Shown here: positions 3,806 through 51,958 of the stretch, piece by piece
Layout: each line of letters begins with the position of its first letter
Position numbering within the stretch: the first letter of the stretch is position 1
Assembly: GCF_002835935.1 (NCBI RefSeq)
Contig: NZ_PJCF01000004.1
Span: forward strand, 310,001 to 374,000
DNA length: 64,000 nt
Source: Paraglaciecola sp. MB-3u-78
Lineage (GTDB): Bacteria; Pseudomonadota; Gammaproteobacteria; Enterobacterales; Alteromonadaceae
Direction: 5' to 3'
Position numbers and translations under genes: made by a program
The notes under the pieces: model-generated
What the model saw: only the letters and a program-made list of their open reading frames with translations
Databases searched by the model: none
Told to the model about the DNA's origin: nothing

Positions 3806-3997
3806 GATTGACTTGTTTTACGGAAATTATTTCGGTTAAGGCTAGCTAAAAACAATTTTTTCTTGATTGGCTTATCATCAGAGTCTTGTAAAGATACATA
3901 TGTGTTAATCATCAATAATCACCTTTATTTTAGTAGCACTAAACCCTAGTTATGCATACATTGATATAAACAAAAGACAGCTTAATAGATTCTAGCA

Positions 3998-4030
3998 AAT
4001 TAGTGTTGATGGAAATCAATTAGTGTCGAT
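3998..4030. repeat. 20-bp-spaced direct repeat upstream of the efflux operon
   Basis: Two copies of AATTAGTGTYGAT begin at 3998 and 4018, exactly 20 bases apart, in the gap 3806-4137 between the efflux operon and the nucleotidyltransferase remnant. Spacing of about two helical turns suits a regulator bound on one face of DNA, but no regulator gene sits beside it. Nothing else was recognised in this gap. Confidence 0.25.
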
Positions 4031-4137
4031 TTTATAAATATTAGGGGGGATGTTTATAGGGTTCAGGGGATAGCAGAAGAATAAGCGACACTTCATCTAT
4101 ACCCAAAGCTTTGATTTTGTTGGGTTGATGTTTACTG

Positions 4138-4617
4138 ATGCCAATAATACCCACCCTCACGTCGCTACTGACCCACTCACACCAGCATTTGCTGAACCTG
4201 AACCTCCAACATGATGAATTATCAGAAATGTTTACGTATGCAGCACAACAACATAAAGACGGGTTGGCCGCTAATTTCCTAGAGAAAGATGTATGGGTCA
4301 CAGAAATTCTCCGCTTACTTTATGATGAGAAGTTATTGGGAAATTGCTCTGTAGCTTTTAAAGGCGGAACAGCATTAAGTAAATGTTGGTCGGCAATTGA
4401 ACGCTTTTCTGAAGATATAGATTTATCGATTCACTGGGCTGACCTATCAGGCCTATCAGAAGAAGATGAGCAGGCTTCTTGGATTCAAAGTACAAAAAAC
4501 CCAAGCCAGAGCAAGAAGTTCATAAAGCAGCAACGAGAACGACTAATTGAATGGAGTACTCGTTTGGTTGAGGCTCTGATGCGTAATAATATGAAACCGA
4601 TCGGTCAACAACATTGA
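4138..4617 (+). pseudogene. Truncated AbiEii/AbiGii-type nucleotidyltransferase
   Basis: The reading frame encodes the N-terminal half of a toxin-type nucleotidyltransferase: LEKDVWVTEILRLL, then FKGGTALSK and RFSEDIDLSI, the G-G-T-x-L-S and D-x-D signatures of the AbiEii family. Family members are usually about 250-320 residues and work with an AbiEi-type antitoxin in type IV toxin-antitoxin or phage-defence pairs. Here the frame enters an IS21-derived relic at 4580 and stops 12 codons later. No continuation was seen beyond the relic, and no antitoxin gene was recognised upstream. The true start may be the ATG at 4228 (MFTYAAQQ), since the first 30 residues look unlike the family. The gene is very probably inactive. 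Confidence 0.7.
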
Positions 4618-4693
4618 AGACGATCACTTTTTTGTCTTCCAGTAGAGCTCAGTAAAATCTAACTTGTGTGATTGGCCTGGATGTTAATATGCA
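4580..4693. mobile_element. 114-bp internally deleted IS21-family relic (MITE-like)
   Basis: Positions 4580-4667 match the first 88 bases of the complete IS21 element at 10096 with three mismatches. Positions 4668-4693 match its last 26 bases. The junction falls in an octamer, GTGATYGG, that occurs 88 bases from the left end of the full element and 26 bases from its right end. The relic therefore looks like an IS that lost everything between two short direct repeats, keeping both termini and no transposase. No clear target duplication flanks it, so flanking sequence was probably also rearranged. It truncates the AbiEii-like gene. Confidence 0.85.
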
Positions 4694-4802
4694 GTGCTTA
4701 GGCCAAAAGACTGAGAAGACGGAAGGCTTAGAGCGATTGGCCGTCAGTCGCTCTTGATTAATTGCAGAGGTGAATAGAGTAAATGGGGGTGATTGAAATA
4801 GC

Positions 4803-35027: not shown

Positions 35028-36497
35028 ATGAGCGCCCAGCAACATTTCGAAACAGCACCCGAAGACAAAATATCACTTTCCAAAAAACTTATTTATGGCT
35101 TAGGCGCATTTGTTAACAATATTTTAGCTGCCGCAATAGGCGGTATGGTTATCGTGCTTAATTTAGGCTTGGGCATGAATCCCGCATTAGTCGGTTTACT
35201 CAGCGCTTTACCCCGCCTGACCGATGCGATTACCGATCCGCTGATGGGTTATATTTCAGACCAAACTAAGTCCAAGTGGGGCCGGCGTAGACCATATATT
35301 TTTTGTGGTGCCATAGCCGTAGGTATAATTTATGCCTTAATGTGGCAGTTGCCCCTTGGGCAAAGTGAAAATTTCTATTTTTGGTTCTTCCTCGCCGGTT
35401 CGTTTGTTTTTTATCTTGCCTATACTGTTTTTGCCACTCCATGGGTAGCCCTAGGTTATGAATTAACGCCCGATTATCACGAACGTACCCGTTTGATGGC
35501 CGTGCAAAACTCTATGGGTTACGTGGCTTATCTCATTTCACCTTGGTTTTTATGGTTTATGCAAAGTGATGTGTTATTCGACGATATGGTGGAAGGAGCC
35601 AGTTGGTTGGCCATTATTATCGGTGCGGCTGTAATCGTTATTGGCGTTATACCTGCCATCTTCTTGAAAGAACGTTTTAATAAGGCCAACACAGAAGAGC
35701 GTTCTGTGGCTGCAACCGAAGAAAAACCTCTTAAAATAAACAACGTGGAAGAATTCCCTACTGGTTTCAAAGGCTTTATACGTGGCTTCGTTATTACTTT
35801 AAAATTCAAGCCCTTTTTAAGCCTCTGTGGTGCCACCTTTTTGGTGTTTAATGGCTTTATGCTGGTTTCATCGTTCCAGATATATGTGATCATTTATTAT
35901 GTATTTGAAGGTAATCAATCCTTAGGGGCAGAATATTCAGGCTGGGCAGGCACATTATCTGCGGCCTCTACGTTTTTTGTTATTTTCTTTGTTTCTTGGT
36001 TATCCACTAAAATAGGCAAGAAAAAAGCATTTTATGTGGCGACTGTTGTATCTATTGTAGGTTATGGATTGAAGTGGGTTTGTTACCATCCCGATTATCC
36101 GTTACTGACCTTAGTACCCGCTCCTTTTATGGCTTTTGGCTTGGGTGCACTCTTTACCTTGATGGGTTCAATGATTGCCGACGTATGTGATATGGATGAG
36201 TTAGCGACGGGGGAACGACGTGAAGGTATGTTTGGTTCTATTTATTGGTGGGTAGTAAAGTTAGGTATGGCTGTCGCATTAGCTGCAGGCGGATTTTTGC
36301 TTAATATCACAGGTTTTGATGTTGCCTTGGGTGGCGCGCAAACTGCCGAGACGATTCATATGATGAGATTATTTGATGTGGTTATTCCTATAGTGGCTTC
36401 TGCCATCGCAATATGGATGGTGTATACCTATCCGATTACCGAACAAAAAGCCCATGAAATCCGCGAAGAGTTAGAACAGAGAAGACAAGCGGCGTAG
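35028..36497 (+). CDS. GPH-family sugar:cation symporter (MFS)
   Basis: A 489-residue inner-membrane carrier of the glycoside-pentoside-hexuronide:cation family, with about 12 hydrophobic helices. Family signatures are KLIYGLGAFVNNILAA at the start, LPRLTDAITDPLMGYISDQTKSKWGRRRPYI (in pieces), TPWVALGYELTPDYHERTRLM and, late, LMGSMIADVCDMDELATGERREGMFGS. The context (two GH3 beta-glucosidases divergent, a TonB receptor downstream) suggests import of glucose oligosaccharides or disaccharides from the periplasm. It is followed by a 20-bp perfect hairpin. Confidence 0.93.
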   Translation: MSAQQHFETAPEDKISLSKKLIYGLGAFVNNILAAAIGGMVIVLNLGLGMNPALVGLLSALPRLTDAITDPLMGYISDQTKSKWGRRRPYIFCGAIAVGIIYALMWQLPLGQSENFYFWFFLAGSFVFYLAYTVFATPWVALGYELTPDYHERTRLMAVQNSMGYVAYLISPWFLWFMQSDVLFDDMVEGASWLAIIIGAAVIVIGVIPAIFLKERFNKANTEERSVAATEEKPLKINNVEEFPTGFKGFIRGFVITLKFKPFLSLCGATFLVFNGFMLVSSFQIYVIIYYVFEGNQSLGAEYSGWAGTLSAASTFFVIFFVSWLSTKIGKKKAFYVATVVSIVGYGLKWVCYHPDYPLLTLVPAPFMAFGLGALFTLMGSMIADVCDMDELATGERREGMFGSIYWWVVKLGMAVALAAGGFLLNITGFDVALGGAQTAETIHMMRLFDVVIPIVASAIAIWMVYTYPITEQKAHEIREELEQRRQAA

Positions 36498-36713: not shown

Positions 36714-38213
36714 CTATGTATTCACGCTCGACGGGCAATAGTGTTTGATAAAGTCATTGTGATCTGGCCAGCTTTGTACTTTCTTTTTCACCCCAGACTT
36801 AATTGTATTTAAAAAATTACGCAGTTCTTCATCACCCATCATATCGACAATAGGATGATATTGCTCTGGCATTAGTCCCTGTCCCAACATTACCTGCACC
36901 CATGATGTTTCACCAAATAACTCCTCATCTTTTTGAAATGCTTGGGCGCTTTCTTTGAATAAGGCCATCCGATGTTTTAGGGATTCGGGCACATCCATCG
37001 TTTTGCAATATCGCCAAAAGGGTGTGTCTTTGCGATCGGTCAAGTGATAATGAAGAATAATAAAGTCTTTTATGTTTTCTGCTTCTTCTCTTGTTTGATC
37101 ATTATACTCTTCTACATCTGACTGTTTGATGCCTTGCGATGGAAACATAAGCAATAAGCGTAAAATGGCTTTTTGAAATAGATGTATGCCAGTGGACTCT
37201 AAAGGTTCAATAAATCCAGACGAGAGCCCCATTGCTATACAGTTTTTGTTCCAACGTTTCCTGCGTTGACCTGTTTTAAATTTTATGACACGAGGCTCGT
37301 TTAAGCGCTCGCCTTCAATATTATTCAGCAGTATCTTAGTCGCTTCGGCGTCTGACAGATACTTGCTACAGAATACAAAACCATTACCGGTTCGATTTTG
37401 CAAGGGGATACGCCATTGCCAGCCCGCGTCTCTTGCAATGGCGCGCGTGTAAGGTATTGGCTTACTAACCGTTTTAGTTTGCACGGCTATTGCACTATCA
37501 CAGGGTAATACATGGCTCCAATCGTCGTAACCAGTGTGCAATGCTTCTTCAATTAACAAACCTCTAAAACCAGTACAATCAATGAATAAGTCTCCTTCGA
37601 TAAGCTGACCCGAGTCTAGGGTGAGTGAATCGATGTAACCCGAGTCATCGTCCAAGCTGACCTTATCAATCTTGCCTTCAATACGTATACATCTATTTTT
37701 TTCAGCAATTTTTCTCAAAAACTTGGCGTATAGGCCGGCGTCGAGGTGATAGGCATGGTTTAGTTCTTGGCCAGCCATGACGCCAAATCTTCCTTCTCTG
37801 GCACCTAAATGTTCTGGAACATAGTCACCAATGTCCGAGACTATGCCGCGCTTTTGTCCTTTTAGCCAAAAGTGCTGAAAATCAGCCGCCCAGCAACCTT
37901 GTCCTAAAAAACCAAAAGAGTGAAGGTAGTCTTTATTAACGTCGCGCCAGTTTTCAAAATTAATACCCAGTTTGAATGTTGCGTTAGTGGCGGCCATAAA
38001 TTCTTGTTCATTAATTTTCAATAACTGATGAAAAGTATGTAGCGAGGGAATCGTCGCTTCTCCTACACCTACTGTTGGTATTTCATCTGACTCCACTAAC
38101 ACTACTTCGAGATTTTTACCAATTAATTTCGATAGTGCGGCCGCGGCCATCCAACCTGCAGTGCCTCCGCCGGCAATAACCACTTTGTTAATTTTTCTGT
38201 CTTGTTTTTTCAA
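36714..38213 (-). CDS. Flavin-dependent tryptophan halogenase-like protein (first)
   Basis: A 499-residue FAD protein of the tryptophan 7-halogenase family. It shows the dinucleotide loop GGGTAGW (residues 15-21), the catalytic lysine of the PrnA/RebH family (NATFKLGINF, K81), the halogenase signature WQWRIP (265-270) and the conserved glutamate of FIEPLES (about E339). With all key residues present, a halogenating activity is possible. Such genes recur beside TonB receptors together with SapC and cupin-like genes. No substrate or partner reductase is known from sequence here. It is the last gene of a four-gene run (halogenase, SapC, cupin-like, halogenase). Confidence 0.9.
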   Translation of the reverse strand: MKKQDRKINKVVIAGGGTAGWMAAAALSKLIGKNLEVVLVESDEIPTVGVGEATIPSLHTFHQLLKINEQEFMAATNATFKLGINFENWRDVNKDYLHSFGFLGQGCWAADFQHFWLKGQKRGIVSDIGDYVPEHLGAREGRFGVMAGQELNHAYHLDAGLYAKFLRKIAEKNRCIRIEGKIDKVSLDDDSGYIDSLTLDSGQLIEGDLFIDCTGFRGLLIEEALHTGYDDWSHVLPCDSAIAVQTKTVSKPIPYTRAIARDAGWQWRIPLQNRTGNGFVFCSKYLSDAEATKILLNNIEGERLNEPRVIKFKTGQRRKRWNKNCIAMGLSSGFIEPLESTGIHLFQKAILRLLLMFPSQGIKQSDVEEYNDQTREEAENIKDFIILHYHLTDRKDTPFWRYCKTMDVPESLKHRMALFKESAQAFQKDEELFGETSWVQVMLGQGLMPEQYHPIVDMMGDEELRNFLNTIKSGVKKKVQSWPDHNDFIKHYCPSSVNT

Positions 38214-38278
38214 AATACTACCTTAGTAAGTAATCTTTATCTGTAATCTGAGTAATGAAAAAGGCTAGGGCGATGCGT

Positions 38279-39295
38279 TTATTGTTTTAATTTGTTTAAT
38301 AGATAGGCTCTTAATTTTCTTGCCGCTAACTCATTCAGGGGTTTTGACAACATCCCTTTAGCTTGCTCGGGAATATGATCCATATTGTCGTCGTCGTGAT
38401 CAAAAACATAGTGCTCAAAATGTGCTTTCCAGGCCTGTCGTTGTGCCAGTGGTAAATCACGTAAACTCAGCATGGCTAACATTAATGCGTTATCGGGACG
38501 GCCCATAAAAGCGGGACTGTCACGCCACCAGTGGCTGACCAACACATTAAAGGCATCTAAACTTTGGACATGATGCCACCACATGCTAGGAAGAAAAAGT
38601 GCATCTCCTGCTTCTAAATCGGCTATTTGGGCTGCAGCCATTGCCTGTTTGAATTTTGGGTATTTAACAAGGTCGGGTTCATCAAAATCTACCACGCTTA
38701 TATCCTGCCCACCAGGCGCGAAGCCCATTGGTCCAACATATAAATTAGCAATTTGTTCCGGTGGAAATAAGGTGAATTTGCGTCGTCCCACCACACAACA
38801 AGCTAAATTGTTTGGAAAATCGTAATGCGCCGCTATTTTACTGCGATTACCGATCCATACACTGATTAATGGGTGAAGATGGTCTATCGACGCATTATTG
38901 TGTTCATTGAACCCTGGTAAACAGCTATTGATTTCAGTTGAGCCTACATAGATGGTAGGAGGATTAGAATCGTTTGTATGTGCCAGTAACTTATCGAGAA
39001 CTTGATTCAGGTTTGCTTTTGACCCGGTAAAATTAAACCCGGTCATTTTGTCATCGTAAAAAATACGTCCTTTATATTCTGCTTCGATATAGTTGGTGTT
39101 TACTGGTTTATCAGAATAAAAACTACGCAAATAATCTGCCGCCTTCTCAGGCGACTCTTTACCTGTAATCACTACCGGCCATTTGTCGGCAAAGCCTTTC
39201 AGAATTAAAGGCTGGGTTGAGGCTAAGACAAAATCAGGAATATCACCGGGCTGGCAATGATTAATTTCTTTCACTTTGTTATTTATCGTTAGCAC
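38279..39295 (-). CDS. Cupin-like (cupin_8 / JmjC-type) oxygenase-like protein
   Basis: A 338-residue protein of the cupin-like family related to JmjC hydroxylases. The iron ligands are visible as the HxD pair in SKIAAHYDFPNN and a distal histidine in LFLPSMWWHHVQSLD, with CCVVGRRKFTLFPPEQ between them as in JmjC oxygenases. This points to an Fe(II)/2-oxoglutarate dioxygenase fold acting on a protein or sugar side chain; the target is unknown. It sits 32 bases after the SapC gene and 65 bases before the halogenase, on the same strand. Confidence 0.88.
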   Translation of the reverse strand: MLTINNKVKEINHCQPGDIPDFVLASTQPLILKGFADKWPVVITGKESPEKAADYLRSFYSDKPVNTNYIEAEYKGRIFYDDKMTGFNFTGSKANLNQVLDKLLAHTNDSNPPTIYVGSTEINSCLPGFNEHNNASIDHLHPLISVWIGNRSKIAAHYDFPNNLACCVVGRRKFTLFPPEQIANLYVGPMGFAPGGQDISVVDFDEPDLVKYPKFKQAMAAAQIADLEAGDALFLPSMWWHHVQSLDAFNVLVSHWWRDSPAFMGRPDNALMLAMLSLRDLPLAQRQAWKAHFEHYVFDHDDDNMDHIPEQAKGMLSKPLNELAARKLRAYLLNKLKQ

Positions 39296-39327
39296 CCAAA
39301 TCCCCCTTATATCATGAGCTTGTAATA

Positions 39328-40056
39328 TTACAGACCAAGTTTTCTGTTTTTACGATTTAATAGTCCACGTATATTAGATTGCGACGCGATAGCCATATAA
39401 ATGGCTTGTAGATAGCCTCTGGCGTGCAATTTTGCCAAGGTTTCGGTATTAAGTTCACTTAACTTTTCTTCATTAATCGTATAAAAACCTACCATTTGGT
39501 GTTTGCTGTTGTCGTTTAATTCAAGGTCTAAAGTAAAAGTCTCTAACAATTCATGTTCAATTAACAGGTCTATAAATATTTTACTGTCCACAATACCATG
39601 ATGAATGGCTTCCAGCATATCGGCGACCGTATCTAAGTAAGGTGTATTGCCTCCAAATTCTAAAAATAACGCTTTGCCGTGCTCCTGGTTGACCCTGGGA
39701 TGGTCCATATCAATATGCAATACCCTTTGCTCTTTGTCTTCGCCATCCTCATTGGTTTTTTGCAGGCCAATCAAAAAAGGTTGTCTGGCAATGCTTAGTG
39801 GAAGATATGGCGCTTCCCAACTATTATCTGTCAAAAACAGATTTTCCTGATCTTGAAAACCAAACAGTGCCACTGCAAAGAATTGTCCGGTATTAGCATC
39901 TTTGTTAAAAAATATTGGGTAATAAGCTTGCACACTTCTAAATTCTGCTGGAAAAGTAAGGCTATACCACACATTATCACCGTACTTTTGAGAACGTTCA
40001 GTGACTACTTTTACATCTTTATGATCGATACTATTGAGTAATACATTGTTTGCCAT
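39328..40056 (-). CDS. SapC family protein
   Basis: A 242-residue protein of the SapC family, named after a Campylobacter S-layer-associated protein but widespread next to TonB receptors. Typical phrases are NVLLNSIDHKDVKV, the FRSVQAYYPIFFNKD segment, ENLFLTDNSWEAPYLPLSIARQPF (in pieces) and a late YTINEEKLSELNTETLAKLHARGYLQAIYM region. There is no signal peptide, so it is probably cytoplasmic. Biochemical function is not established. It lies between halogenase 2 and the cupin-like gene. Confidence 0.88.
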   Translation of the reverse strand: MANNVLLNSIDHKDVKVVTERSQKYGDNVWYSLTFPAEFRSVQAYYPIFFNKDANTGQFFAVALFGFQDQENLFLTDNSWEAPYLPLSIARQPFLIGLQKTNEDGEDKEQRVLHIDMDHPRVNQEHGKALFLEFGGNTPYLDTVADMLEAIHHGIVDSKIFIDLLIEHELLETFTLDLELNDNSKHQMVGFYTINEEKLSELNTETLAKLHARGYLQAIYMAIASQSNIRGLLNRKNRKLGL

Positions 40057-40116
40057 TTTTCTTCCAAATTCTTTTGTTTATCAAACTTATAGTTATTTAT
40101 TAAAATAATTTTGTGG

Positions 40117-41682
40117 CTATATTTTTGGTAAGCCGTATTGCTTGATTTTATTAATTAATTCACGGTTTTTAGGTAAGGTCGATAATAGATGTTTAGTGTG
40201 TTTGAGATTTTCACTAAACAAGTTATCTGCTTTTTTCGATGAATCTAGCCTTTTTTCAAGAGGCGGGTCGGTAACAAATCCCATACCGTATAAGATATAT
40301 TGATAACTGGCTGAAGGAAACATTTCTTCTGTGTGTGTAGCATCATAATGGTAGGGGGGCTGGGTTTTCCAGAGTAACAGTTGCTCTTGCAAGGTGTCGG
40401 GACATTGTTTGTGATCACTGATTTCGCGCCAATAGTCTGAATCCGTTCTTTGACTCAAGACGTAATGTAACTTGAGAAAATCAACTATGTTTTGCCAGCG
40501 ATGTAAAAATTTAGTGTTAAAGCGTTTGGCCACAATATCCATTGTTTGCCGATTTGCGGGTAACTGCTCGCTGATCATTTTGGCAGACAGCTCTATTAAG
40601 GCCAAAGCAGTGGCTTCTAATGGCTCAATAAAGCCCGCTGACAAACCTACGGCTATACAGTTTTTATGCCAGAATTTTTCTCTATGTCCAGGACTAAAGC
40701 TTATCTTTCGTATGTTTATAGACTCCGCGGCACTTGCACCCATTATAGGGGTGATATAGTCACGTAACTCTTTTTCTGCTTTATCGTCGGTGATATGCGA
40801 ACTTGAATAGGTATAGCCCACACCTCTACGAGAAGGCAATGCTATATCCCATATCCAACCAGCCGTTTGTGCCGTAGAGCAGGTAAAAGAAGCAATAGGG
40901 CTGTCTGGACGCTGATGGGGCACATGCACCGCTAAGGCAGAATCGTTAAATAATATATGCTTTTTACTCACAAAAGGGATGCCGTAGTGTTTACCCAGCA
41001 AAAGGGATGAGGTGCCTGTGCAGTCTATAAATAAGTCCCCTGAAATTTCCCCATGGTTTTTGCTGGTGATGGAGGCGATATCTCCGGTTTCTGAGGGATT
41101 AACCTGAGTCACATGATCGATTATGTGCTTAACGCCTAAGTTTTTTGTGCAATGTTTTTGTAAGAATATGGCAAACTTACTCGCATCTAAGTGGTAACCA
41201 TAATTGGCATTAAAGTCGTATTCAGCGGTAGAAATCTGTTTAGGTGCCAAACCATGTTCACCTAGTTGGCTTTGGGTACATACCGCATCGGCAAAGCTGA
41301 TCTTATCCCGAAAGGGTTGCCAAAATGGTGCCAGGTTGGTGTCGTTAAAGCCATGGGGTAAGGTATAAGGATGATAATAATGTTCGTTGGTATTGGTGTG
41401 CCAATTACTAAACTTTGAACCTTGTTTAAAACTAGCATCACACTCCAATAAAAAATCTGTTTCTGAAATGCCCATTTTCTTCAAAGTACTGCGCATAGAG
41501 GGCCATGTACCTTCACCCACGCCAATAGGGGCTATATCTGGCGATTCAATAAGGGTTACTTCGAGGCCTGTAGCAGAATCTGTTGCATGGTCTATAGCAT
41601 GTTCGGCCGCTATGATACCCGCGCTTAACCAACCTGCAGATCCCCCCCCTACTATGACAATTTTTTTTAAAGGTTTATGCAT
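40117..41682 (-). CDS. Flavin-dependent tryptophan halogenase-like protein (second)
   Basis: A 521-residue relative of the first halogenase. It has GGGSAGW (residues 12-18), the catalytic lysine (DASFKQGSKF, K86) and FIEPLEA, but the halogenase signature is WIWDIA (276-281), with alanine where WxWxIP requires proline. That change could alter activity or specificity. It is the first gene of the halogenase-SapC-cupin-halogenase run and lies 275 bases after the TonB receptor gene, beyond a strong terminator, so it probably has its own promoter at 41683-41880. Confidence 0.9.
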   Translation of the reverse strand: MHKPLKKIVIVGGGSAGWLSAGIIAAEHAIDHATDSATGLEVTLIESPDIAPIGVGEGTWPSMRSTLKKMGISETDFLLECDASFKQGSKFSNWHTNTNEHYYHPYTLPHGFNDTNLAPFWQPFRDKISFADAVCTQSQLGEHGLAPKQISTAEYDFNANYGYHLDASKFAIFLQKHCTKNLGVKHIIDHVTQVNPSETGDIASITSKNHGEISGDLFIDCTGTSSLLLGKHYGIPFVSKKHILFNDSALAVHVPHQRPDSPIASFTCSTAQTAGWIWDIALPSRRGVGYTYSSSHITDDKAEKELRDYITPIMGASAAESINIRKISFSPGHREKFWHKNCIAVGLSAGFIEPLEATALALIELSAKMISEQLPANRQTMDIVAKRFNTKFLHRWQNIVDFLKLHYVLSQRTDSDYWREISDHKQCPDTLQEQLLLWKTQPPYHYDATHTEEMFPSASYQYILYGMGFVTDPPLEKRLDSSKKADNLFSENLKHTKHLLSTLPKNRELINKIKQYGLPKI

Positions 41683-41888
41683 TGGCTCACCCGAGATTAA
41701 ATACGTTTCAAAAAGACCCGAGCCGAAACTGCTGACATTAGCATTAAGCTTATTCTTAGGATCCTATATATTATTTCTTAAACGGCAGAACATAGTGTAT
41801 GGATCTTAGAATAAAGGCAAGTTTAGTTAAACAGCGTGCCTTGTCTAGACTCTTTTGGAAAAACATTCTATTTATTGGACATAAAAAA

Positions 41889-41922
41889 GCCGCATCAATT
41901 GATTATCATTAATTGATGCGGC
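41889..41922 (-). terminator. Rho-independent terminator after the TonB receptor gene
   Basis: A 12-bp perfect stem (GCCGCATCAATT / AATTGATGCGGC) with a 10-base loop is followed on the minus strand by TTTTTTA. This is a classic intrinsic terminator, 36 bases beyond the receptor stop. Confidence 0.92.
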
Positions 41923-41957
41923 CAACATTACCTAGCTAACACATTATTAAGTGCTGA

Positions 41958-44951
41958 CTAGAAACTATAACGGGCACCGACAGACCAGCGGGCGCCTTGT
42001 TGAATAGCAGAAATAACCTGATTTCCGTTACGTCCGACCTTCGTCGTATTTTCTTCTGTTATGTTTATTCCGTTAAGGTAAACACTTAATCCTTCAACCT
42101 GAGGTACCTCGTAACTGGCTGTTATGTCTAATTGTGCATATTCTTCAATATAAGCCGGTCCAGGTCCTGCTGAGCCATCTTGTACTAATTGCACTATATA
42201 CTTACCACGCCAGTTGTAAGCGCCCCGAATAGAGAAGCCATCTTTTTCATAGAAGGCCACTATGTTAGCTGAATCACTAATACCAATTTCAGCCAATTGG
42301 GAGGCTAACGAAAAGTCATCGTGCTCGTTATCGGTGTCCGTTTTGGTATAGTTGATTATGCCGCCAAAGCCACTGTCGCCGAACAAGTGTTGTATCGCAA
42401 ACTCGAAACCGGAATAACCCGTGGTACCATCAACATTCAGTGGTGTCTGAATTTTGAAGTTCAATAACTGATCGGTAGTGGGGTTACCGGCAATAACAAT
42501 GTTGCCTCCAGCCATGTAAACATTAGGGTCGGTTGCACCGTAGGTAGCAAATATATATTCACGCTGTTTCGTACGATTATCACCGATAAGCTCTCCATCT
42601 TCATCTAGGGCAGCCATAGCTTCCTCTACATAAGGGCCGAGAGCCGGGTTATATATTCCGGCGGAGAAATCTAATGGCAATACCAATATATCATTCTCAA
42701 CATCTTTAGTGAAATAGCCAAAAGATACATAACTGCCTTCGTCGTAATACCATTCAGCGGATAAGTCAATATTGGTCGACTCAAGAGGTTTTAAAGCTGG
42801 ATTACCCGTAACCCCTGTACCGCCATCAACACGCGCTCCTTGGTCTACGGTGAGACCACCGATCATTTGACCGTATAGAGGTCGTCCTATGGTTTCACTG
42901 TAAGCTGCTCGCAGCACAATGTCATCGGTAGCATTTAAGTTAAAGTTAATGCTGGGTAACGTATGGTTATAGCTACCTTCTCTGGTACCAGAGGTTCTAT
43001 TACCGCTACCTTGAAGCGAAACTTCAGTCGCGCCAACCCAAAGAGCTGGTATTAGAAATTCAGGTACGGAAGATGTTGCCGTTACATCGGTTTCTTCATA
43101 ACGCACACCGACATGCACATCATAATACATGTCGCCAATATCACCTTCGTAATTATATTGTACGTAAATAGAGGCCATTTCTTCTTTGGTATATTGGTCT
43201 TTATCTGAGGCATAATCTGTAGATGGGCAGAATGAGTTGCCGCAATCGCCGATTCCTTGAACACTCAAATTTAGGGCGGCAATGTCTCTTACCCCTTCAA
43301 AATCAAATTCAAAGTAGCTCTCTAAAATCTCAACAGGATTGTTAGCAGCAAAGTCTCCTGTAGTAAAATTACCGCCACTCATGTTGTCAAAGCGACTACC
43401 TACACTGACCCGGGTGAATAAGTCGTCAGTGAAGTAACCAGTGGGGCCTTCCCCCCCCCAGTTATCTCGCCTTATTTGTTTACTTCGGGAACGGTTTTGT
43501 GAGTGGGTTAGGGCTATACCGAAGTCAATACTGCCTGCATCTTCTAGAATATACTCACCGTGAAATTGGCTTTGTGATACGTGAGATTTATTCTTGTTGT
43601 TGGTAAAAACACTGCCGGTAATCTGAAAATCTTCGGCTGATGCGGTGCTCGCACCTACGATTGATAGAGTGGGCCTTTCACCGGTAAAGTCAGTAGCAGT
43701 ATACTCACGTACTAAAGCCCGGAGCTGAATTTCGTTAGCTGAACCCAATGGACTATTGGGGTTAGCGTAAGCACTAGACTCATGATGATCAAAGTTAAGG
43801 GTTAAGTTGTCCGTGGCTTGATATTCTAAGTTCAAGCCTAAAGACTTGCTGCCATCTTTAACGCTGAAAGAAGAGGCACCTATCGCCATGTCTGCAGCGT
43901 CAAGGGCTGCAGCGGTACCATCATGGATCTCAGAATAGATTAGAGGTGAAACATTTGGACCGTCTGACCAAATATTAACTGTATCTCCATAAGTATACCA
44001 AGCAGAGATAATGTTATTTTGGGTGTCGTTTTCTTTTTGAACGTAGGTGTAATCTACCGTAGCGGTAAGATTATCCATGGGTCTATATTGTAGCGTTAAC
44101 TGGGCATTGGTTCTTTTACGCTGCTGCTCTTCAAACTTATAAGAGGTATTTTGCGGTACCGAGAAAATATCATCGTCACCGTAGCGGTTAATTTGTGTCA
44201 CAGGATCAACAGGTACGCTGGGGCCGGCATCTGATGTACCTGCAAACGTACGGAAAAAATTCACATTAGCTTGCTGACTACCACTTTCCCGCTCTGAATA
44301 ACTCGCTGAGAGTGAAACACCAAACTTTCCGTCGTCACTCGTGTTTGAATAAAGCCCAGAAAACTGCGGTGTCACACCGCCTTTTTGGGTGGTAGCATCG
44401 TCTAAAGCTTCTATAGCGAAGGTGGCCTTTTGACCGGGGCTATTGAGTGGCTTGTGGGTTAAAATATTAATGGTGGCACCAATACCACCGGTGGGCACAT
44501 CTGCTTTAGATGTTTTATACACTTCTACGCCGCTGACACCTTCAGCCGCTAAGTTAGAAAAATCAAAATTACGCTCACCTGTGGTAGTCGGCATTTGACG
44601 ACCATTTAAGGTAACTAAGTTACGATCTGGACCAAAACCACGGGCACTGACCTTGGCACCTTCGCCGTTTGAGCGTTCAATGGATATACCTGTTATCCGC
44701 TGCAACGATTCTGCCAGGTTACTATCAGGAAATTTACCAATATCTTCAGCACTGATCGCATCAACAATACCACTTGATGAACGTTTAATGTCCATTGACT
44801 GGATCATACTGCCGCGAATACCTTTGACCTGAATCACTTCAGTTTCATCATCTGCCGCTTCTTGTGCAAAAGCAGGTGCCATCATACTGGCGCCTAGTAT
44901 GATAGAGAGACTGGCCGCTAAGGGGGTTTTATTAAATCTTTTTGTGTTCAT
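41958..44951 (-). CDS. TonB-dependent receptor
   Basis: A 997-residue outer-membrane receptor for active uptake powered by TonB. A signal peptide (about 1-29, cleavage after AFA) precedes a TonB-box-like segment (ETEVIQVKG), the plug domain (SAEDIGKFPDSNLAESLQRITGI, in pieces, then GFGPDRNLVTLNGRQMP and VYKTSKADVPTGGIGATINI), and a 22-strand-type barrel ending in GARYSF with the terminal phenylalanine. This is the Caulobacter/Alteromonas-type receptor that commonly imports glycan oligosaccharides. It follows the CBM lipoprotein gene by 95 bases on the same strand, so the two probably form the outer-membrane import pair, with beta-glucan fragments as the inferred cargo. Confidence 0.95.
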   Translation of the reverse strand: MNTKRFNKTPLAASLSIILGASMMAPAFAQEAADDETEVIQVKGIRGSMIQSMDIKRSSSGIVDAISAEDIGKFPDSNLAESLQRITGISIERSNGEGAKVSARGFGPDRNLVTLNGRQMPTTTGERNFDFSNLAAEGVSGVEVYKTSKADVPTGGIGATINILTHKPLNSPGQKATFAIEALDDATTQKGGVTPQFSGLYSNTSDDGKFGVSLSASYSERESGSQQANVNFFRTFAGTSDAGPSVPVDPVTQINRYGDDDIFSVPQNTSYKFEEQQRKRTNAQLTLQYRPMDNLTATVDYTYVQKENDTQNNIISAWYTYGDTVNIWSDGPNVSPLIYSEIHDGTAAALDAADMAIGASSFSVKDGSKSLGLNLEYQATDNLTLNFDHHESSAYANPNSPLGSANEIQLRALVREYTATDFTGERPTLSIVGASTASAEDFQITGSVFTNNKNKSHVSQSQFHGEYILEDAGSIDFGIALTHSQNRSRSKQIRRDNWGGEGPTGYFTDDLFTRVSVGSRFDNMSGGNFTTGDFAANNPVEILESYFEFDFEGVRDIAALNLSVQGIGDCGNSFCPSTDYASDKDQYTKEEMASIYVQYNYEGDIGDMYYDVHVGVRYEETDVTATSSVPEFLIPALWVGATEVSLQGSGNRTSGTREGSYNHTLPSINFNLNATDDIVLRAAYSETIGRPLYGQMIGGLTVDQGARVDGGTGVTGNPALKPLESTNIDLSAEWYYDEGSYVSFGYFTKDVENDILVLPLDFSAGIYNPALGPYVEEAMAALDEDGELIGDNRTKQREYIFATYGATDPNVYMAGGNIVIAGNPTTDQLLNFKIQTPLNVDGTTGYSGFEFAIQHLFGDSGFGGIINYTKTDTDNEHDDFSLASQLAEIGISDSANIVAFYEKDGFSIRGAYNWRGKYIVQLVQDGSAGPGPAYIEEYAQLDITASYEVPQVEGLSVYLNGINITEENTTKVGRNGNQVISAIQQGARWSVGARYSF

Positions 44952-45046: not shown

Positions 45047-47620
45047 TTACTCAGCGGCAAGTAAAATAACACTGACGTCGTCAATGTTAATAGTACCCGT
45101 GAAAAGACCCATGTCGAAGAATACGCGGCTGCCGACTCCGCCAATACCTGTGGCAACAATGTCTGTGGTAAAGGTTTGCCATTCAGTCGTCAATTCAATG
45201 GTTTCAGCTATACTATTAAAAGTACCACTATTAAGACCTAGGCCGGCAATCATAGTGCGCTCTAAAGACGCTTTAGCTCTAAAAGAAAAGGTATAGGTTG
45301 CGCCTTCAATAATATCGAACACTTGAGTCTGATTAACGTCATAAACGAAAGTCGAGGCAGTTTCTATGACGGCTTCGAATATCATATTGTCGCCATCTGC
45401 TACGACTTCACCTACATTATCTTTCCAACTGGCAAGGCCATTCTCAAAATCGCCATTGGTTAAAGCTTCATCACCAATTTCAAGGACGACAGGGTCAACA
45501 ACAGGGTCACCCCCGTCTTTCACCTGTACACTGACGTCGTCAATGTTAATAGTACCCGTGAAAAGACCCATGTCGAAGAATACGCGGCTGCCGACTCCGC
45601 CAATACCTGTGGCAACAATGTCTGTGGTAAAGGTTTGCCATTCAGTCGTCAATTCAATGGTTTCAGCTATACTATTAAAAGTACCACTATTAAGACCTAG
45701 GCCGGCAATCATAGTGCGCTCTAAAGACGCTTTAGCTCTAAAAGAAAAGGTATAGGTTGCGCCTTCAATAATATCGAACACTTGAGTCTGATTAACGTCA
45801 TAAACGAAAGTCGAGGCAGTTTCTATGACGGCTTCGAATATCATATTGTCGCCATCAGCAACGACTGCACCTACATCGTCTTTCCAACTAGTAAGACCGT
45901 CTTCAAAATCGCCATTTGTTAACGCTTCATTGACAACAACATCACCGCCGGTATCGCCGCCAGTATCGCCGCCATCTTTGACCTTAAGACTCACATCATC
46001 AATGGATACCATGCCAACTTCGGCTCCCATATCAAATAAGATACGGCTGTTGTCATCACCAAAGGGAGTACCATCAGCATCGTTCACAGTGGTTATAGTA
46101 TAAGTAAAAGTCTGCCAGTCTGTCGTGAGTTGTGGGTTTTCAACTGCGCTGTGCCATGGATCTGCATTCAAACCAGGGCCAGCAATCATGGAGCGTTCTA
46201 CCGATGCCTTCGCTTTAAAGGAAAATACGTAGGTTGTGTTGGGAATTAAGGTCATCACTTGACTTAAATTAACGTCCCATGGATTACCGGCAGCAGTAAC
46301 ATCGACTTCAAAGAAACTATTGGCACCGTCTGCAACAATATTAGTATCTCCAGCCGTCCAGCCTGTAGTGCCACCTTCGAAATTACCATTAGTTAGCAAC
46401 TCCGGGCCATTAGGATCAACAGCATCAACGCCGCCAACAACACTGACTATCTTGACGTTATCAACAAGGTACACGGCACCCTCGCCTGGTCCATAGGCAG
46501 GAAATATCATGAATATGGTAATTTCGCTGGGGTTCAAACCTCGAGGCGTCAAGTCAGCTAAATCGAAGGTGTAGGTCTGCCATTCACCGGTGACTGGGGC
46601 CAAACCTTCATTGCTGCTGGTCAACTGAATATCCACAAAACCAGGAAGAGTAGTACTAGAGCCATCGGCAGCTTCTAGTTTTAGAAACCATGGCGTCGCT
46701 TCGCCTGCCGTTGGAGCAGTAACCACTTTCATCTCAAAACTGAATTGGCCATTGCTTGCGAATTCAGAGGCATCAAACGGTGTACCCGCGTCTCTGGAGT
46801 CGAAACCGGCTACGGTTGCGCCTGTAATGGTAAATTGGGCAACCTGATCATGTTCTAAATCATCGGTAACCACGTCGGTTTCTGCCGCAGCATCACCCCA
46901 CAGTGCCCATTCAGGCAGCTCAAAAGTTTCAAATACGACAAGCTCTGTGGTCACTACGGCAGGCCCAGTAATCAAAATATTAAAGCTTTGACTTATATCT
47001 AAGGTGCCATCAGTGACCGTTAATTCTACGGGGTAGCTACCGGGTATCTCTGGCTGACCCGATAAGGTATTCGTAGTCATATCAAAGGTCGCCCAGTCGG
47101 GTAAAGTCGGTGCGGTGAACGTCAAGTCATCAAAGTTTGCGTCAGCCGCAGTCACTGCGTATGAATAAGCAGTCTCTATATCGCCCATTACGACTGGGTC
47201 GCTAGTAAATTCGGGGGCGACATTATCAAGTGGCAATGCTTGCACAGCAATAGTAAATTCCTGAGTAGCTGAATCCGTACCATCTGTAACAGTGATGGTA
47301 ACAACAATATCACCCACATCTGCAAGTGTCGGTGTTCCAGACAACAGTCCTGTAGCAGTATCGATGGTTAACCATGATGAATCTGATGAGGAATAAGTGA
47401 GTGAATCTGCGTCCGCATCTGTTGCTGTTAAAGCATAAGCGTAAGGCTGGCCTTCATTTGACACAGTAACGGCGTCGCTGATTATTACTGGCACACTGTT
47501 AATACGAGGCGGAGGAGGAGGCGGCGCTAAATCATCAGTGTTACATGCCGTCATACCGAAAACGAGTCCGGTGATCAGCACCAGTCTTTTTAATTTGAAT
47601 TGTTGTGTAATAACTTTCAT
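45047..47620 (-). CDS. Surface-type lipoprotein with Ig-like and repeated carbohydrate-binding domains
   Basis: An 857-residue lipoprotein: signal ending at GMTAC (Cys about 26), a run of six prolines, two Ig/cadherin-like putative domains (about 40-125 and 133-218, each with SGTP/SGQP turns and VTDGT), a beta-sandwich of about 180 residues, then three CBM4/9-like domains each opening with LTNGDFE/LTNGNFEGG and ending DIDDVS-type strands. Domains 2 and 3 of this set are nearly identical. Family 4-type CBMs often bind beta-1,3-glucan. There is no catalytic domain. Beside a TonB receptor in a lineage without SusD, it most likely serves as the glycan-binding partner. Its start overlaps the stop of a 36-codon upstream frame. 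Confidence 0.85.
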   Translation of the reverse strand: MKVITQQFKLKRLVLITGLVFGMTACNTDDLAPPPPPPRINSVPVIISDAVTVSNEGQPYAYALTATDADADSLTYSSSDSSWLTIDTATGLLSGTPTLADVGDIVVTITVTDGTDSATQEFTIAVQALPLDNVAPEFTSDPVVMGDIETAYSYAVTAADANFDDLTFTAPTLPDWATFDMTTNTLSGQPEIPGSYPVELTVTDGTLDISQSFNILITGPAVVTTELVVFETFELPEWALWGDAAAETDVVTDDLEHDQVAQFTITGATVAGFDSRDAGTPFDASEFASNGQFSFEMKVVTAPTAGEATPWFLKLEAADGSSTTLPGFVDIQLTSSNEGLAPVTGEWQTYTFDLADLTPRGLNPSEITIFMIFPAYGPGEGAVYLVDNVKIVSVVGGVDAVDPNGPELLTNGNFEGGTTGWTAGDTNIVADGANSFFEVDVTAAGNPWDVNLSQVMTLIPNTTYVFSFKAKASVERSMIAGPGLNADPWHSAVENPQLTTDWQTFTYTITTVNDADGTPFGDDNSRILFDMGAEVGMVSIDDVSLKVKDGGDTGGDTGGDVVVNEALTNGDFEDGLTSWKDDVGAVVADGDNMIFEAVIETASTFVYDVNQTQVFDIIEGATYTFSFRAKASLERTMIAGLGLNSGTFNSIAETIELTTEWQTFTTDIVATGIGGVGSRVFFDMGLFTGTINIDDVSVQVKDGGDPVVDPVVLEIGDEALTNGDFENGLASWKDNVGEVVADGDNMIFEAVIETASTFVYDVNQTQVFDIIEGATYTFSFRAKASLERTMIAGLGLNSGTFNSIAETIELTTEWQTFTTDIVATGIGGVGSRVFFDMGLFTGTINIDDVSVILLAAE
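45069..45397. repeat. 329-bp exact direct repeat, copy 1
   Basis: Identical to 45528-45856 at every base compared; the offset is 459 bases (153 codons). Similarity continues with scattered changes beyond the exact block. It encodes a carbohydrate-binding domain of the lipoprotein. The lack of synonymous differences shows a very recent duplication or gene conversion. Confidence 0.95.
45528..45856. repeat. 329-bp exact direct repeat, copy 2
   Basis: Second copy of the exact repeat in the lipoprotein gene. Unequal recombination between the two copies would add or remove one 153-residue binding domain without breaking the frame. Confidence 0.95.
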
Positions 47621-48511: not shown

Positions 48512-51500
48512 ATGAATATTGAAAAATCGCACAGTAGTGCAGTGTCAGGTGACTTTACGACTATTGGCGGCGAACGCTTTTACGCTATACACAACGTTGA
48601 CAAAATGGCACCCTTTTTTGTTAGTTTGATTTCTGATAGTGACCACTGGTTATTTGTTTCCTCAACTGGAGGATTGACCGCCGGCAGAGTGTCGCCAGAA
48701 ACTGCTTTGTTTCCCTATGCGCCAGTGGATAAGATCCATGAGAGTGTCAGTAATACAGGTTGTAAGACCCTGTTACAGGTCACTAAAAACGGCCAAACCT
48801 ATAAGTGGGATGCCTTTAACAAAGTTTTTAACCACCCATATCAAATTAGCCAAAATTTATATAAAAATACCTTGGGTGATAAAATTTGTTTTGAAGAAAT
48901 TAATCATGATCTGGAATTGGTATTTCGTTACACCTGGACCACCAGCGATGAGTTTGGTTTTTGTCGTCAGTGTGAATTACAGAATTTGGCTGAACAAGAT
49001 GTTTCGGTAAAAATGATTGATGGTTTGCAGAATATATTACCGGCTGGGACACCACGTTTTACTCAAACAGTTTCAAGTAATCTAGTCGATGCCTATAAAT
49101 GGAGTGAGCTTGAAAAAACGACTGGCTTGGCTATGTTCACGGTTTATTCTGGTATCACCGATCGCGCAGAGCCTAGTGAATCTTTAAAGGCTAACACCGT
49201 ATTTTCTCTGGGTTTTGATGCACCTAAAATATTGCTTTGTAACGCACAATTAGAAAGCTTTTGGCATAATGCAGAAATTGAAACTGAGGCTACAAAACGC
49301 GGAATTCGTGGGGCGTATTTTTTGAACGTAGAGTTCGAATTACCTGCACAGCAGAGAAAAAAATGGCAGTTGGTGGCTAATCTAGAACAAAATCAGTCTC
49401 AGGTCAGCGCCTTAATTCAATCACTAGGCAACCAAGATAAAGTGGTCGCTGACTTATCTGCTTCTATAATTGAAGGTTCAGATGTTCTAGCGCGTATCAT
49501 GGCCGCGTCTGATGGATTTCAGATGACCAGCGAAGAAAATGTGTCAGTTCATCATTATGCTAATACGCTGTTTAATAATTTAAGAGGGGGAGTGTTTGAC
49601 AATCAATATTCCTTATCAACAAGAGATTTTATTGCCACCTTAAAAACTTTTAATATCGATATTTACGATAGACATCTACAAGCTTTGTGTAAATTGCCGG
49701 AGCAGATCAGCTTACAGCACTTTTCCAGCACCATCACCTCTCTTAATGACCCACAGTTAGAACGATTGGCTGCTGAATATTTGCCTATCACTTTTGGTCG
49801 CAGACATGGCGACCCTAGTCGTCCATGGAACCAATTTGAAATCAAATTGAAGGATGATGCCGGACATCGTTTGTTGTCTTATCAAGGTAACTGGCGAGAT
49901 ATTTTTCAAAACTGGGAAGCATTAACCTTTAGTTATCCGGAATTTATAGAGTGTGTTATCGCTAAATTTGTTAACGCATCAACCATAGATGGTTATAACC
50001 CTTATCGCATTACCAAGGGTGGAATAGACTGGGAAGTGGAAGAGCCCGATGACCCTTGGAGCTACATTGGTTATTGGGGTGATCATCAGATCATCTATTT
50101 ACTAAAAATGTTGGAACTGTCTAAACAATTTCATCCAGCGTTGTTAGCACAATTACTCAAAAAATCGATTTTCAGTTATGCCAATGTGCCTTATCGAATC
50201 AAGTCATTTGACGAGATGTTGAATAATGCAAAAAGCACAGTGACTTATGATGAGGATTCTGCAGAGCGTATTTCTGAAAAAGTCGCACAGTTTGGTGCTG
50301 ACGGTAAGTTAATACTGGATGAAAATGGTGACGTTTATCAAGTTAATCTATTAGAAAAACTATTGGTGCCTTTGTTGTGTAAATTGGGCAACTTGGTCGT
50401 CGACGGTGGTATTTGGTTAAACGCCCAGAGACCAGAGTGGAATGACGCGAACAATGCCTTAGTGGGTCAAGGCTTGTCGATGGTGACACTGAATTATCTG
50501 AGACGTTACATATGTTTTTTCCAAGATTTAATGAAGGATCAGTCTGAAACCACTGAATTATCTTATGAAGTAGCATTGTGGCTCAAAGAAACAGCCAAAA
50601 TATTACAAAATTTAAGTCCGAAATTAGAGGGTGTACCGGTATCTAACACATTGCGGTTTACTGTGTTACAGGATCTAGGCCAAGCAGCGTGGCGTTACCG
50701 TCAGGCCGTGTATAACACGCAGAGCTTTAGTCACAAAGAAAATTGCTCGGTTGAAGTGGTTAATCTATTACTCAGCAATGCACTACTTGTGATTGATCAT
50801 ACGATTCAAACCAGTGTCGGTGATGATGGTTTGTATCAATCCTATAACTTGTTGGGTTTTCATGGCGAGCAAGCTTCGGTAGAAAATCTTTATCCCATGC
50901 TTGAAGGGCAAGTGGCTGCTATCAGTTCTGGTGCGATCAACCCCGAGCAAGCTGCAGATGTATTGGATGCGTTGTTTGTCAGTGATGTTTATCGTGACGA
51001 CCAAAAAACCTTTATGTTGTATCCAGACCGCATTCAAACACCATTTTTATCTAAAAATGTGATCACTTCTGCAGCGTTTGCTGAGGTACCCGTATTTGCG
51101 CAAATGCTGGCTGCATCTGATAAACGTATCGTCATGCATGACGTGAAAGGTTGTTATCGTTTCAATCCTAATTTAAAAAATAGCGGTGAATTGACGATTC
51201 AACTTAATCAACTTAGTGCAGATTACCCTGCATTGGATAAAACAATGGTGTCTAAAATTGAAGGTCTGTATGAAGAAGTATTTAATCATCAATCTTTTAC
51301 CGGTAGATCGGGCGGCATGTTTGGTTTTGAAGGGCTAGGTAGCGTGTATTGGCACATGGTGTCAAAACTGTTATTAGCATTAAAAGAGAATTTCTATGCT
51401 GCCGTTGCAGAAGATGCCAAACCTGAACTCATCCAACGTTTAGGCGCTCTTTATTACCGGGTGCGTGGCGGTATTGGTTTTAACAAATCACCTCAAGAAT

Positions 51501-51958
51501 ATGGTGCATTTCCTTGTGACCCATACTCCCATACGCCTAAACATGCTGGGGCGCAACAACCTGGAATGACAGGGCAAGTCAAAGAAGAAATTCTGAGCCG
51601 TTTTGGTGAATTGGGTATTCATGTATTTCAAGGTGAGGTCGAATTTAAACCAACACTGCTTCGTTGTCGTGAATTTGTAACTACACAACAGACTTTGCGT
51701 TACCTTGATGTTAAAAATGATTGGCAGGAAACCACAGTTCCCAAAGACGGTATCGGCTTTACTTGGTGCCAAGTACCTGTTGTATATGAATTGAGCACCG
51801 GTTCACCCGCACTTACGTTAACCTTGTCTGATGGAAAACAAATTACAAACAGCGACTTGACGTTGGGTGGTGAATATAGTCATGCATTATTTAACCGAAC
51901 GGGTTTTATTAAACAAATACACATTACCTTAAACGCCACTCAGCTGCTTGGTGAGTAA
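48512..51958 (+). CDS. Large beta-1,3-glucan phosphorylase-like enzyme (GH149/GH161 group)
   Basis: A 1,148-residue cytoplasmic protein built like an inverting disaccharide/oligoglucan phosphorylase: an N-terminal beta-sandwich (about 1-320) with ERFYAIHNVDKMAPFFVSL and DHWLFVSSTGGLTAGR, then an (alpha/alpha)6 barrel region with RHGDPSRPWNQFEI, YQGNWRDIFQNWEAL, NPYRITKGGIDWEVEEP and DPWSYIGYWGDHQIIYLLK; the general acid is probably an aspartate in the IDWEVEEPDDPW region. Such enzymes split beta-1,3-glucan oligosaccharides with phosphate to give glucose 1-phosphate, saving ATP. The length and lineage favour GH149; GH161 is the alternative. No signal peptide. First gene of a run with two GH17 genes, which supports a beta-1,3-glucan substrate. 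Confidence 0.72.
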   Translation: MNIEKSHSSAVSGDFTTIGGERFYAIHNVDKMAPFFVSLISDSDHWLFVSSTGGLTAGRVSPETALFPYAPVDKIHESVSNTGCKTLLQVTKNGQTYKWDAFNKVFNHPYQISQNLYKNTLGDKICFEEINHDLELVFRYTWTTSDEFGFCRQCELQNLAEQDVSVKMIDGLQNILPAGTPRFTQTVSSNLVDAYKWSELEKTTGLAMFTVYSGITDRAEPSESLKANTVFSLGFDAPKILLCNAQLESFWHNAEIETEATKRGIRGAYFLNVEFELPAQQRKKWQLVANLEQNQSQVSALIQSLGNQDKVVADLSASIIEGSDVLARIMAASDGFQMTSEENVSVHHYANTLFNNLRGGVFDNQYSLSTRDFIATLKTFNIDIYDRHLQALCKLPEQISLQHFSSTITSLNDPQLERLAAEYLPITFGRRHGDPSRPWNQFEIKLKDDAGHRLLSYQGNWRDIFQNWEALTFSYPEFIECVIAKFVNASTIDGYNPYRITKGGIDWEVEEPDDPWSYIGYWGDHQIIYLLKMLELSKQFHPALLAQLLKKSIFSYANVPYRIKSFDEMLNNAKSTVTYDEDSAERISEKVAQFGADGKLILDENGDVYQVNLLEKLLVPLLCKLGNLVVDGGIWLNAQRPEWNDANNALVGQGLSMVTLNYLRRYICFFQDLMKDQSETTELSYEVALWLKETAKILQNLSPKLEGVPVSNTLRFTVLQDLGQAAWRYRQAVYNTQSFSHKENCSVEVVNLLLSNALLVIDHTIQTSVGDDGLYQSYNLLGFHGEQASVENLYPMLEGQVAAISSGAINPEQAADVLDALFVSDVYRDDQKTFMLYPDRIQTPFLSKNVITSAAFAEVPVFAQMLAASDKRIVMHDVKGCYRFNPNLKNSGELTIQLNQLSADYPALDKTMVSKIEGLYEEVFNHQSFTGRSGGMFGFEGLGSVYWHMVSKLLLALKENFYAAVAEDAKPELIQRLGALYYRVRGGIGFNKSPQEYGAFPCDPYSHTPKHAGAQQPGMTGQVKEEILSRFGELGIHVFQGEVEFKPTLLRCREFVTTQQTLRYLDVKNDWQETTVPKDGIGFTWCQVPVVYELSTGSPALTLTLSDGKQITNSDLTLGGEYSHALFNRTGFIKQIHITLNATQLLGE

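Follow-up and report, generated by a model that had tools for sequence, protein, structure and literature searches.

A recurrent cassette of halogenase, SapC and cupin_8 genes tied to TIGR01782 TonB-dependent receptors in Paraglaciecola and its relatives

A cassette of two flavin-dependent halogenase genes, a SapC gene and a gene for a JmjC/cupin-type iron oxygenase is solidly tied to TonB-dependent receptors of the family TIGR01782, in Paraglaciecola sp. MB-3u-78 and across related genomes. The most economical reading of this tie, to which we assign a probability of roughly 0.45, is that the cassette enzymes act in the cytosol and would halogenate and hydroxylate their partner receptor before its export. 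The window, that is, the whole stretch of 64,000 nucleotides analysed here, carries on its minus strand, in order of transcription, the TIGR01782 receptor (41958..44951, 997 aa), the halogenase HalB (40117..41682, 521 aa), a SapC family protein (PF07277; 39328..40056, 242 aa), a cupin_8 protein resembling FIH (38279..39295, 338 aa) and a second halogenase, HalA (36714..38213, 499 aa). The receptor and HalB genes are 275 bp apart, and the open reading frames bear out the tight four-gene run next to a TonB receptor that the initial annotation had described, with gaps of 60 (HalB-SapC), 32 (SapC-cupin_8) and 65 bp (cupin_8-HalA). All five proteins scored well above Pfam or NCBIfam cut-offs: Trp_halogenase 625 and 383 bits, Cupin_8 234 bits, SapC 240 bits (curated cut-off 28.9) and TIGR01782 603 bits (cut-off 310). 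Other loci hold the same genes in the same order, so this arrangement is not a product of chance. A promoter and terminator scan returned promoter-like sites in about the numbers of shuffled sequence, 22 versus 20.4.

The nutrient of the locus is very probably beta-1,3-glucan, because annotated beside the cassette are two GH3 glucosidases (30589-32418 and 32411-34687, minus strand), an adjoining GPH/MelB-type sugar symporter (35028..36497, plus strand), all three assigned by Pfam and NCBIfam, a protein with two He_PIG and three CBM_4_9 stretches and, by eye, a lipobox-like N-terminus, encoded upstream of the receptor (45047..47620, minus strand), and a GH149 1,3-beta-D-glucan phosphorylase (48512..51958, plus strand; NF058639, 1725 bits). 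These genes support the beta-glucan setting proposed earlier; as for the "glucan-type" TonB receptor, the family assignment stands, and the "glucan-type" label derives from gene context. With its receptor, glycosidases, symporter and phosphorylase the window resembles PUL and CUT loci with TonB-dependent receptors, and we know of no role for a halogenase, SapC or an FIH-like enzyme in the standard model of such loci. Flanked by a GntR/UTRA regulator and the two GH3 genes is a 1671-aa protein (25440-30455) with PAS matches at about residues 346-460 and no other Pfam match.

The genome (6.48 Mb, 87 contigs) holds six full-length PF04820 halogenases, four SapC proteins and five TIGR01782 receptors over the cut-off, plus a weak seventh PF04820 match (22.7 bits). 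Each of the six full-length halogenases is found at a TIGR01782 receptor; they are spread over four loci, which serve the use of beta-glucan, glycerol, gluconate and alpha-glucan and where the named neighbours are receptor and nutrient-use genes. The glycerol locus (SSF transporter, glycerol-3-phosphate dehydrogenase-like protein, glycerol kinase) is arranged as receptor-HalB-SapC...SapC and the gluconate locus (GntP) as receptor-SapC-cupin-HalA-HalB-DUF6445, while the alpha-glucan locus (pullulanase, amylase) has one halogenase. Both strong cupin_8 matches and the sole DUF6445 protein of the genome fall in cassettes; a third cupin_8 match (27.8 bits) is located away from them. Since these four nutrients are unrelated and non-aromatic, the common partner would be the receptor and not the nutrient. 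The glycan-linked aromatic group suggested earlier as a substrate is thus disfavoured, as cassettes or halogenases of the same genome also occur at the glycerol, gluconate and alpha-glucan loci. The alpha-glucan receptor (L003:2862-7480) is split by an IS66-type transposase gene (3334-4773), its halogenase frame being still open, and a reverse transcriptase gene (919-1914) lies upstream of it.

Co-occurrence with TonB receptors, on which the initial annotation had made its proposal depend, holds across genomes. In this genome and 20 relatives (halogenases at E <= 1e-40, TIGR01782 at E <= 1e-60), at least 110 of the 142 halogenase matches (a few of them fragments of a single gene) begin no further than 8 kb from a listed receptor, against 5.7 expected at random. 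This figure is a lower bound because it draws on 150 of 230 receptor matches, with one added, and on at most 27 scored candidates per genome. The linkage count included 59 SapC places, one of which (in G013, outside the 21 genomes) was scored as a miss. Halogenases and TIGR01782 receptors share the same 15 of the 21 genomes and, at the E-values used, the other six have neither. Of the 151 receptors listed, 72 are without any listed halogenase or SapC at up to 8 kb, and the other 79 have at least one in that range. One genome, G011, carries 23 halogenase matches, and 18 of these lie no more than 12 kb away from a receptor in the list. A set of 299 genomes of the phylum, with three receptor or five halogenase candidates scored per genome, comprised 33 with both, 3 with a halogenase alone, 16 with a receptor alone and 247 with neither (Fisher p 2e-28, relatedness ignored), lack of a halogenase being defined as no PF04820 match at E <= 1e-40. 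A receptor is present in 33 and SapC in 35 of the 36 halogenase genomes, and 16 of the 49 receptor genomes (one of these 49 below the TIGR01782 cut-off) have no halogenase match. The halogenase therefore seems to depend on the receptor, whereas the receptor does not seem to depend on the halogenase.

Gene order was scored, skipping unlabelled open reading frames, in 80 named loci, the best 80 among 112 found with close relatives of the window SapC, which hence speak for that clade. The order receptor-HalB-SapC-cupin-HalA was found in 58 of them and receptor-SapC-cupin-HalA in 12; the other 10 have a different or incomplete order, in some cases ended by contig edges. On the SapC strand, labels were assigned to SapC, cupin and receptor in 78 loci each, to HalA in 75, to HalB in 68 and to DUF6445 in 59. 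The genera represented include Glaciecola, Colwellia, Shewanella, Rheinheimera, Thalassotalea, Microbulbifer, Ferrimonas, Kordiimonas and Povalibacter. Median gaps are 250 bp between receptor and HalB, 47 between HalB and SapC, 13 between SapC and cupin, 36 between cupin and HalA, and 9 to DUF6445. Divergence of the receptor is correlated with that of HalA over 44 pairs (rho 0.34, permutation p 0.002) and also over 42 within-genome comparisons (rho 0.19, p 0.04).

Sequence comparison recovered in both halogenases the features highlighted by the initial annotation, namely the catalytic lysines (K81 in HalA, K86 in HalB) and the FIEPLE motif (FIEPLEST and FIEPLEAT, respectively), together with GGGxAG. 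The FAD motif, catalytic lysine and FxEPLE motif of PrnA/RebH-kind free-tryptophan halogenases are all present in HalA and HalB. The WxWxIP region reads WQWRIP in HalA and WIWDIA in HalB, and 74 of 83 HalB-class sequences carry WIWDIG, WVWDIG or WIWDIA in its place. In the PDB, HalA matches 6Y1W (Xcc4156, 644 bits) and 6FRL (BrvH, 456 bits) over nearly its full length, sharing the catalytic-lysine region with both, and also 9LUQ, whereas HalB matches 2PYX end to end (648 bits) and also 9LTB; 2PYX is an unpublished JCSG structure labelled "tryptophan halogenase". Full-length similarity and the WxWxIP motif thus place HalA in the Xcc4156/BrvH halogenase clade, while HalB is nearer to 2PYX. LodB, GoxB and QhpG are flavoproteins that modify (oxidise) protein-bound tryptophan. 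HalA matches the NCBIfam models of these related maturases weakly, at 35, 20 and 26 bits (E 1e-8, 4e-4 and 4e-6), far under the respective cut-offs of 400, 400 and 240, and among the neighbours noted none is a quinone-cofactor enzyme. By hydropathy, the sole stretch of HalA and HalB comparable to a signal peptide is the FAD-binding region, and SapC and cupin_8 have none, which suggests that the cassette enzymes lack a signal peptide; the receptor N-terminus is signal-peptide-like by the same measure.

The catalytic lysine is present in 231 of 242 halogenase sequences. Most of the 11 family members lacking it (L204, L213, L217, two in L218, L220, L222, L223, L225, L048 and L052) score low and are additional copies situated among, or close to, normal halogenase genes; they may have a different role. 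Two, encoded near SapC in genomes with no receptor match, are long frames (about 960-1020 aa) whose halogenase-like region is divergent (L048:13923-16811 and L052:2780-5842).

The BrvH paper reports that free tryptophan is not a substrate, that indole is brominated slowly and with such low turnover that the authors doubt it as the natural substrate, that replacement of K83 abolishes activity, and that the open active site can be likened to that of MibH (PMC5945002). Xcc4156 is similarly described as having an open site and no free-tryptophan activity, with peptide substrates regarded as possible (PMC7336383), and both enzymes reportedly lack the pocket residues and lid loops that hold free tryptophan (PMC7336383, PMC5945002). 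The BrvH gene adjoins a second halogenase gene, 42.7% identical (PMC5945002), as HalA and HalB are paired in the cassette. The main texts of these two papers, however, do not describe a link to a receptor, SapC or cupin_8, and contain neither the word TonB nor the word SapC. MibH (5UAO), stated to be 26% identical to Xcc4156 (PMC7336383) and to chlorinate tryptophan only within its peptide (cited in PMC5945002), matches HalA with 180 and HalB with 142 bits; its substrate is a small lantipeptide, whereas none such was seen in the receptor-HalB gap of the window. No description of the cassette was recognised among the open-licence PMC papers listed, judged mostly from titles and the openings of abstracts. 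Papers on Xanthomonas carbohydrate loci are said to note halogenase, SapC and cupin genes beside receptors.

The cupin-like protein was likewise found to keep the HxD...H iron ligands ascribed to it (H157, D159, H241), which are present in 107 of 108 cupins, the remaining one being a gap at this position. FIH (factor inhibiting HIF), its best solved relative, is a JmjC hydroxylase of Asn and Asp residues in proteins. The two share HxD...H and a VDFD-x-PD loop in which Q197 aligns with an FIH glutamine, but the match of this putative hydroxylase amounts to 62 bits over ~110 residues. FIH binds 2-oxoglutarate through a lysine, and this position, K173 in the window, is not conserved (R 61, T 34, K 9, V 2 and E 1 among 108 rows). 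In most named loci a DUF6445 gene, missing from the window cassette, lies directly 3' of HalA (L002:15087-15806 and 60 further loci). Of 61 DUF6445 sequences, at least 95% carry H118xD120...H210...R228, which we take to be the pattern of Fe(II)/2OG oxygenases; a PDB search with DUF6445 yielded chance-level RNA-binding matches and no supporting relative.

For SapC, neither a sequence search nor a fold comparison with its confidently predicted structure gave a PDB match. One search returned 3436 SapC relatives, and the family is common away from receptor cassettes: 47 of 60 phylum-wide loci, hand-picked among the matches listed, have no receptor or halogenase within 8 kb. The 97 immediate SapC neighbours from 50 loci (proteins >1000 aa left out) included OEP (5), HlyD_D23 (3) and ShlB (2), versus two HlyD_D23 among 99 far control genes, for which OEP and ShlB fell outside the 25 families shown and hence number at most one each. 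This enrichment of secretion genes is small and FAD-linked oxidase (9) is commoner, so that no function was assigned to SapC from its neighbours. Outside cassettes, genes for RTX giant proteins, for HlyD/OEP parts of secretion systems, for a SecA-like protein and for two-partner secretion are found in the vicinity of SapC (L036, L039, L043, L044, L047, L152 and L159). Another SapC lies near mraZ and mraW, by Pfam in L142:7894-11954 and L001:13434-18800 and by ORF length and sequence alone in L145, L148 and L158; an M19 dipeptidase is found at four of these loci.

Candidate target residues were sought in an alignment of 181 receptors, of which 140 are linked, 20 come from genomes without a halogenase match, 20 are unlinked in halogenase genomes (these, like the linked regions, hand-picked among the matches listed) and one was left out of the group comparison. 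W498, W914, R118, D388, N374 and R988 separate linked receptors from those of genomes with no halogenase match. The receptor of the window contains seven tryptophans in all, at 318, 328, 498, 638, 734, 914 and 989. W498 and W914, conserved tryptophans of the window receptor, have weighted frequencies of 0.75 (W498) and 0.77 (W914) in linked receptors, 0 and 0.07 in those of no-halogenase genomes, and 0.26 and 0.37 in unlinked ones of halogenase genomes. Among 98 receptors of <62% identity, W498 occurs in 35 of 36 with a cupin nearby versus 20 of 62 without, and W914 in 36 of 36 versus 22 of 62. In the predicted receptor structure (pLDDT 85.6, 51 sequences), W498 would lie near the end of the long strand 473-501, extracellular by topology, and W914 near the end of strand 906-915. 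Independent pairs drawn on a tree of 127 receptors gave, for linkage against W498, 10 pairs with 1.7 in the same direction, 1.3 opposite and 7.0 without difference; for SapC against W498, 5 pairs with 1.4 same and 0 opposite; and for cupin against W914, 7 pairs with 0.2 same and 0 opposite, a test that is weak either way because informative pairs are few. The W498/W914 pattern is mainly one of receptor clades; lacking support on the tree, these tryptophans were dropped as targets, and we claim no target residue. The solved relatives of the receptor are remote by sequence (26.6 bits), which would allow a modification to have gone unnoticed to date. Of the receptor-linked modification system originally envisaged, the recurrent linkage and the receptor as common partner therefore stand, but the residues tried are unsupported once phylogeny is controlled.

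TonB-dependent receptors leave the cytosol unfolded. Under receptor modification before export, the precursor would be held unfolded ahead of Sec export and bound by SapC as a client adaptor; HalA, of the open-pocket kind, and HalB would brominate or chlorinate its tryptophan (or tyrosine) side chains, the FIH-like cupin_8 enzyme would hydroxylate an Asn or Asp side chain, and DUF6445 would be a further iron oxygenase in many relatives. Modified residues would end in the extracellular part of the barrel, with protection of the receptor or an adjustment of its ligand binding as the possible benefit. What we infer here comprises the part played by SapC, the choice of the receptor as substrate, the residues modified and this benefit. 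This reading is supported because halogenases track the TIGR01782 receptor in four nutrient loci and in the 21 and 299 genomes, because HalA relatives have open sites, the cupin is FIH-like and catalytic residues are conserved, because receptor and HalA divergence are correlated, and because HalA has weak matches to LodB, GoxB and QhpG. It is weakened because W498 and W914 do not follow the cassette in independent pairs and because about half of the listed receptors have no nearby cassette and SapC is common elsewhere. We also know of no precedent for halogenation of a receptor at the unfolded pre-export stage, which counts against it. The fuller version, a receptor-specific pre-export system in which SapC would guide both flavin halogenases together with one or two iron oxygenases, often with one cassette per receptor, is rather doubtful.

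Flavin halogenases as a class act mostly on small molecules, and the enzymes might instead modify an aromatic compound, indole-like or other, that is taken up by way of the receptor or signals to it, the halogenated form serving as inducer, detoxified product or public good. BrvH does brominate free indole, if slowly and with its authors doubting that this is natural (PMC5945002). However, the location of receptor-linked halogenases at four unrelated, non-aromatic nutrient loci of one genome and the 18 of 23 halogenase matches near listed receptors in G011 fit poorly with this scenario, which leaves the FIH-like enzyme and SapC unexplained and which we regard as unlikely. The likening of the open active site to the peptide halogenase MibH (PMC5945002, PMC7336383) and the presence, at some other loci, of SapC close to RTX, TPS or secretion genes would also agree with another exported protein or peptide as the substrate, for instance the CBM_4_9 neighbour or a RiPP-like precursor encoded elsewhere, handled in the manner of MibH. 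This is still less probable, given that it is the receptor that was labelled in 78 of the 80 named loci (best 80 of 112 close SapC relatives) and that, by eye, no small ORF common to genera appears in the receptor-HalB gaps, the one in the window having no ORF of at least 20 aa on the gene strand. A hidden precursor peptide was accordingly rejected for the receptor-HalB gaps, to which the search was confined.

The many listed receptors with no linked cassette, together with the failure of the receptor-residue signal in the phylogenetic control, could be accommodated if the cassette rode along with nutrient loci as a passenger, had no specific partner and served a general purpose in redox, halide or oxygen chemistry, that of hypobromite being one example. 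Recurrence of the gene order over many genera, several halogenases per genome with most near one receptor family, and the correlated divergence of HalA and receptor make such a passenger improbable, slightly more so than another protein client. Lowest of all we rank the idea that SapC and the enzymes bind the receptor precursor to assist its assembly or quality control, with catalysis secondary: at some loci SapC does occur without halogenases or cupin and close to genes for large exported proteins, but secretion genes are little enriched over controls, and almost all halogenase and cupin sequences retain their catalytic residues.

We know of no halogenated outer-membrane receptor described before. 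If modification of the receptor before export proves true, TonB-dependent nutrient receptors would contain halogenated aromatic and hydroxylated Asn/Asp residues, and the occurrence of 23 halogenase matches in a single genome would be explained. "Indole halogenases" such as Xcc4156 and BrvH would gain a native substrate, and this group of flavin halogenases now has a testable candidate for one. Marine polysaccharide degraders would then be using halogenation to modify the proteins that serve as their nutrient receptors.
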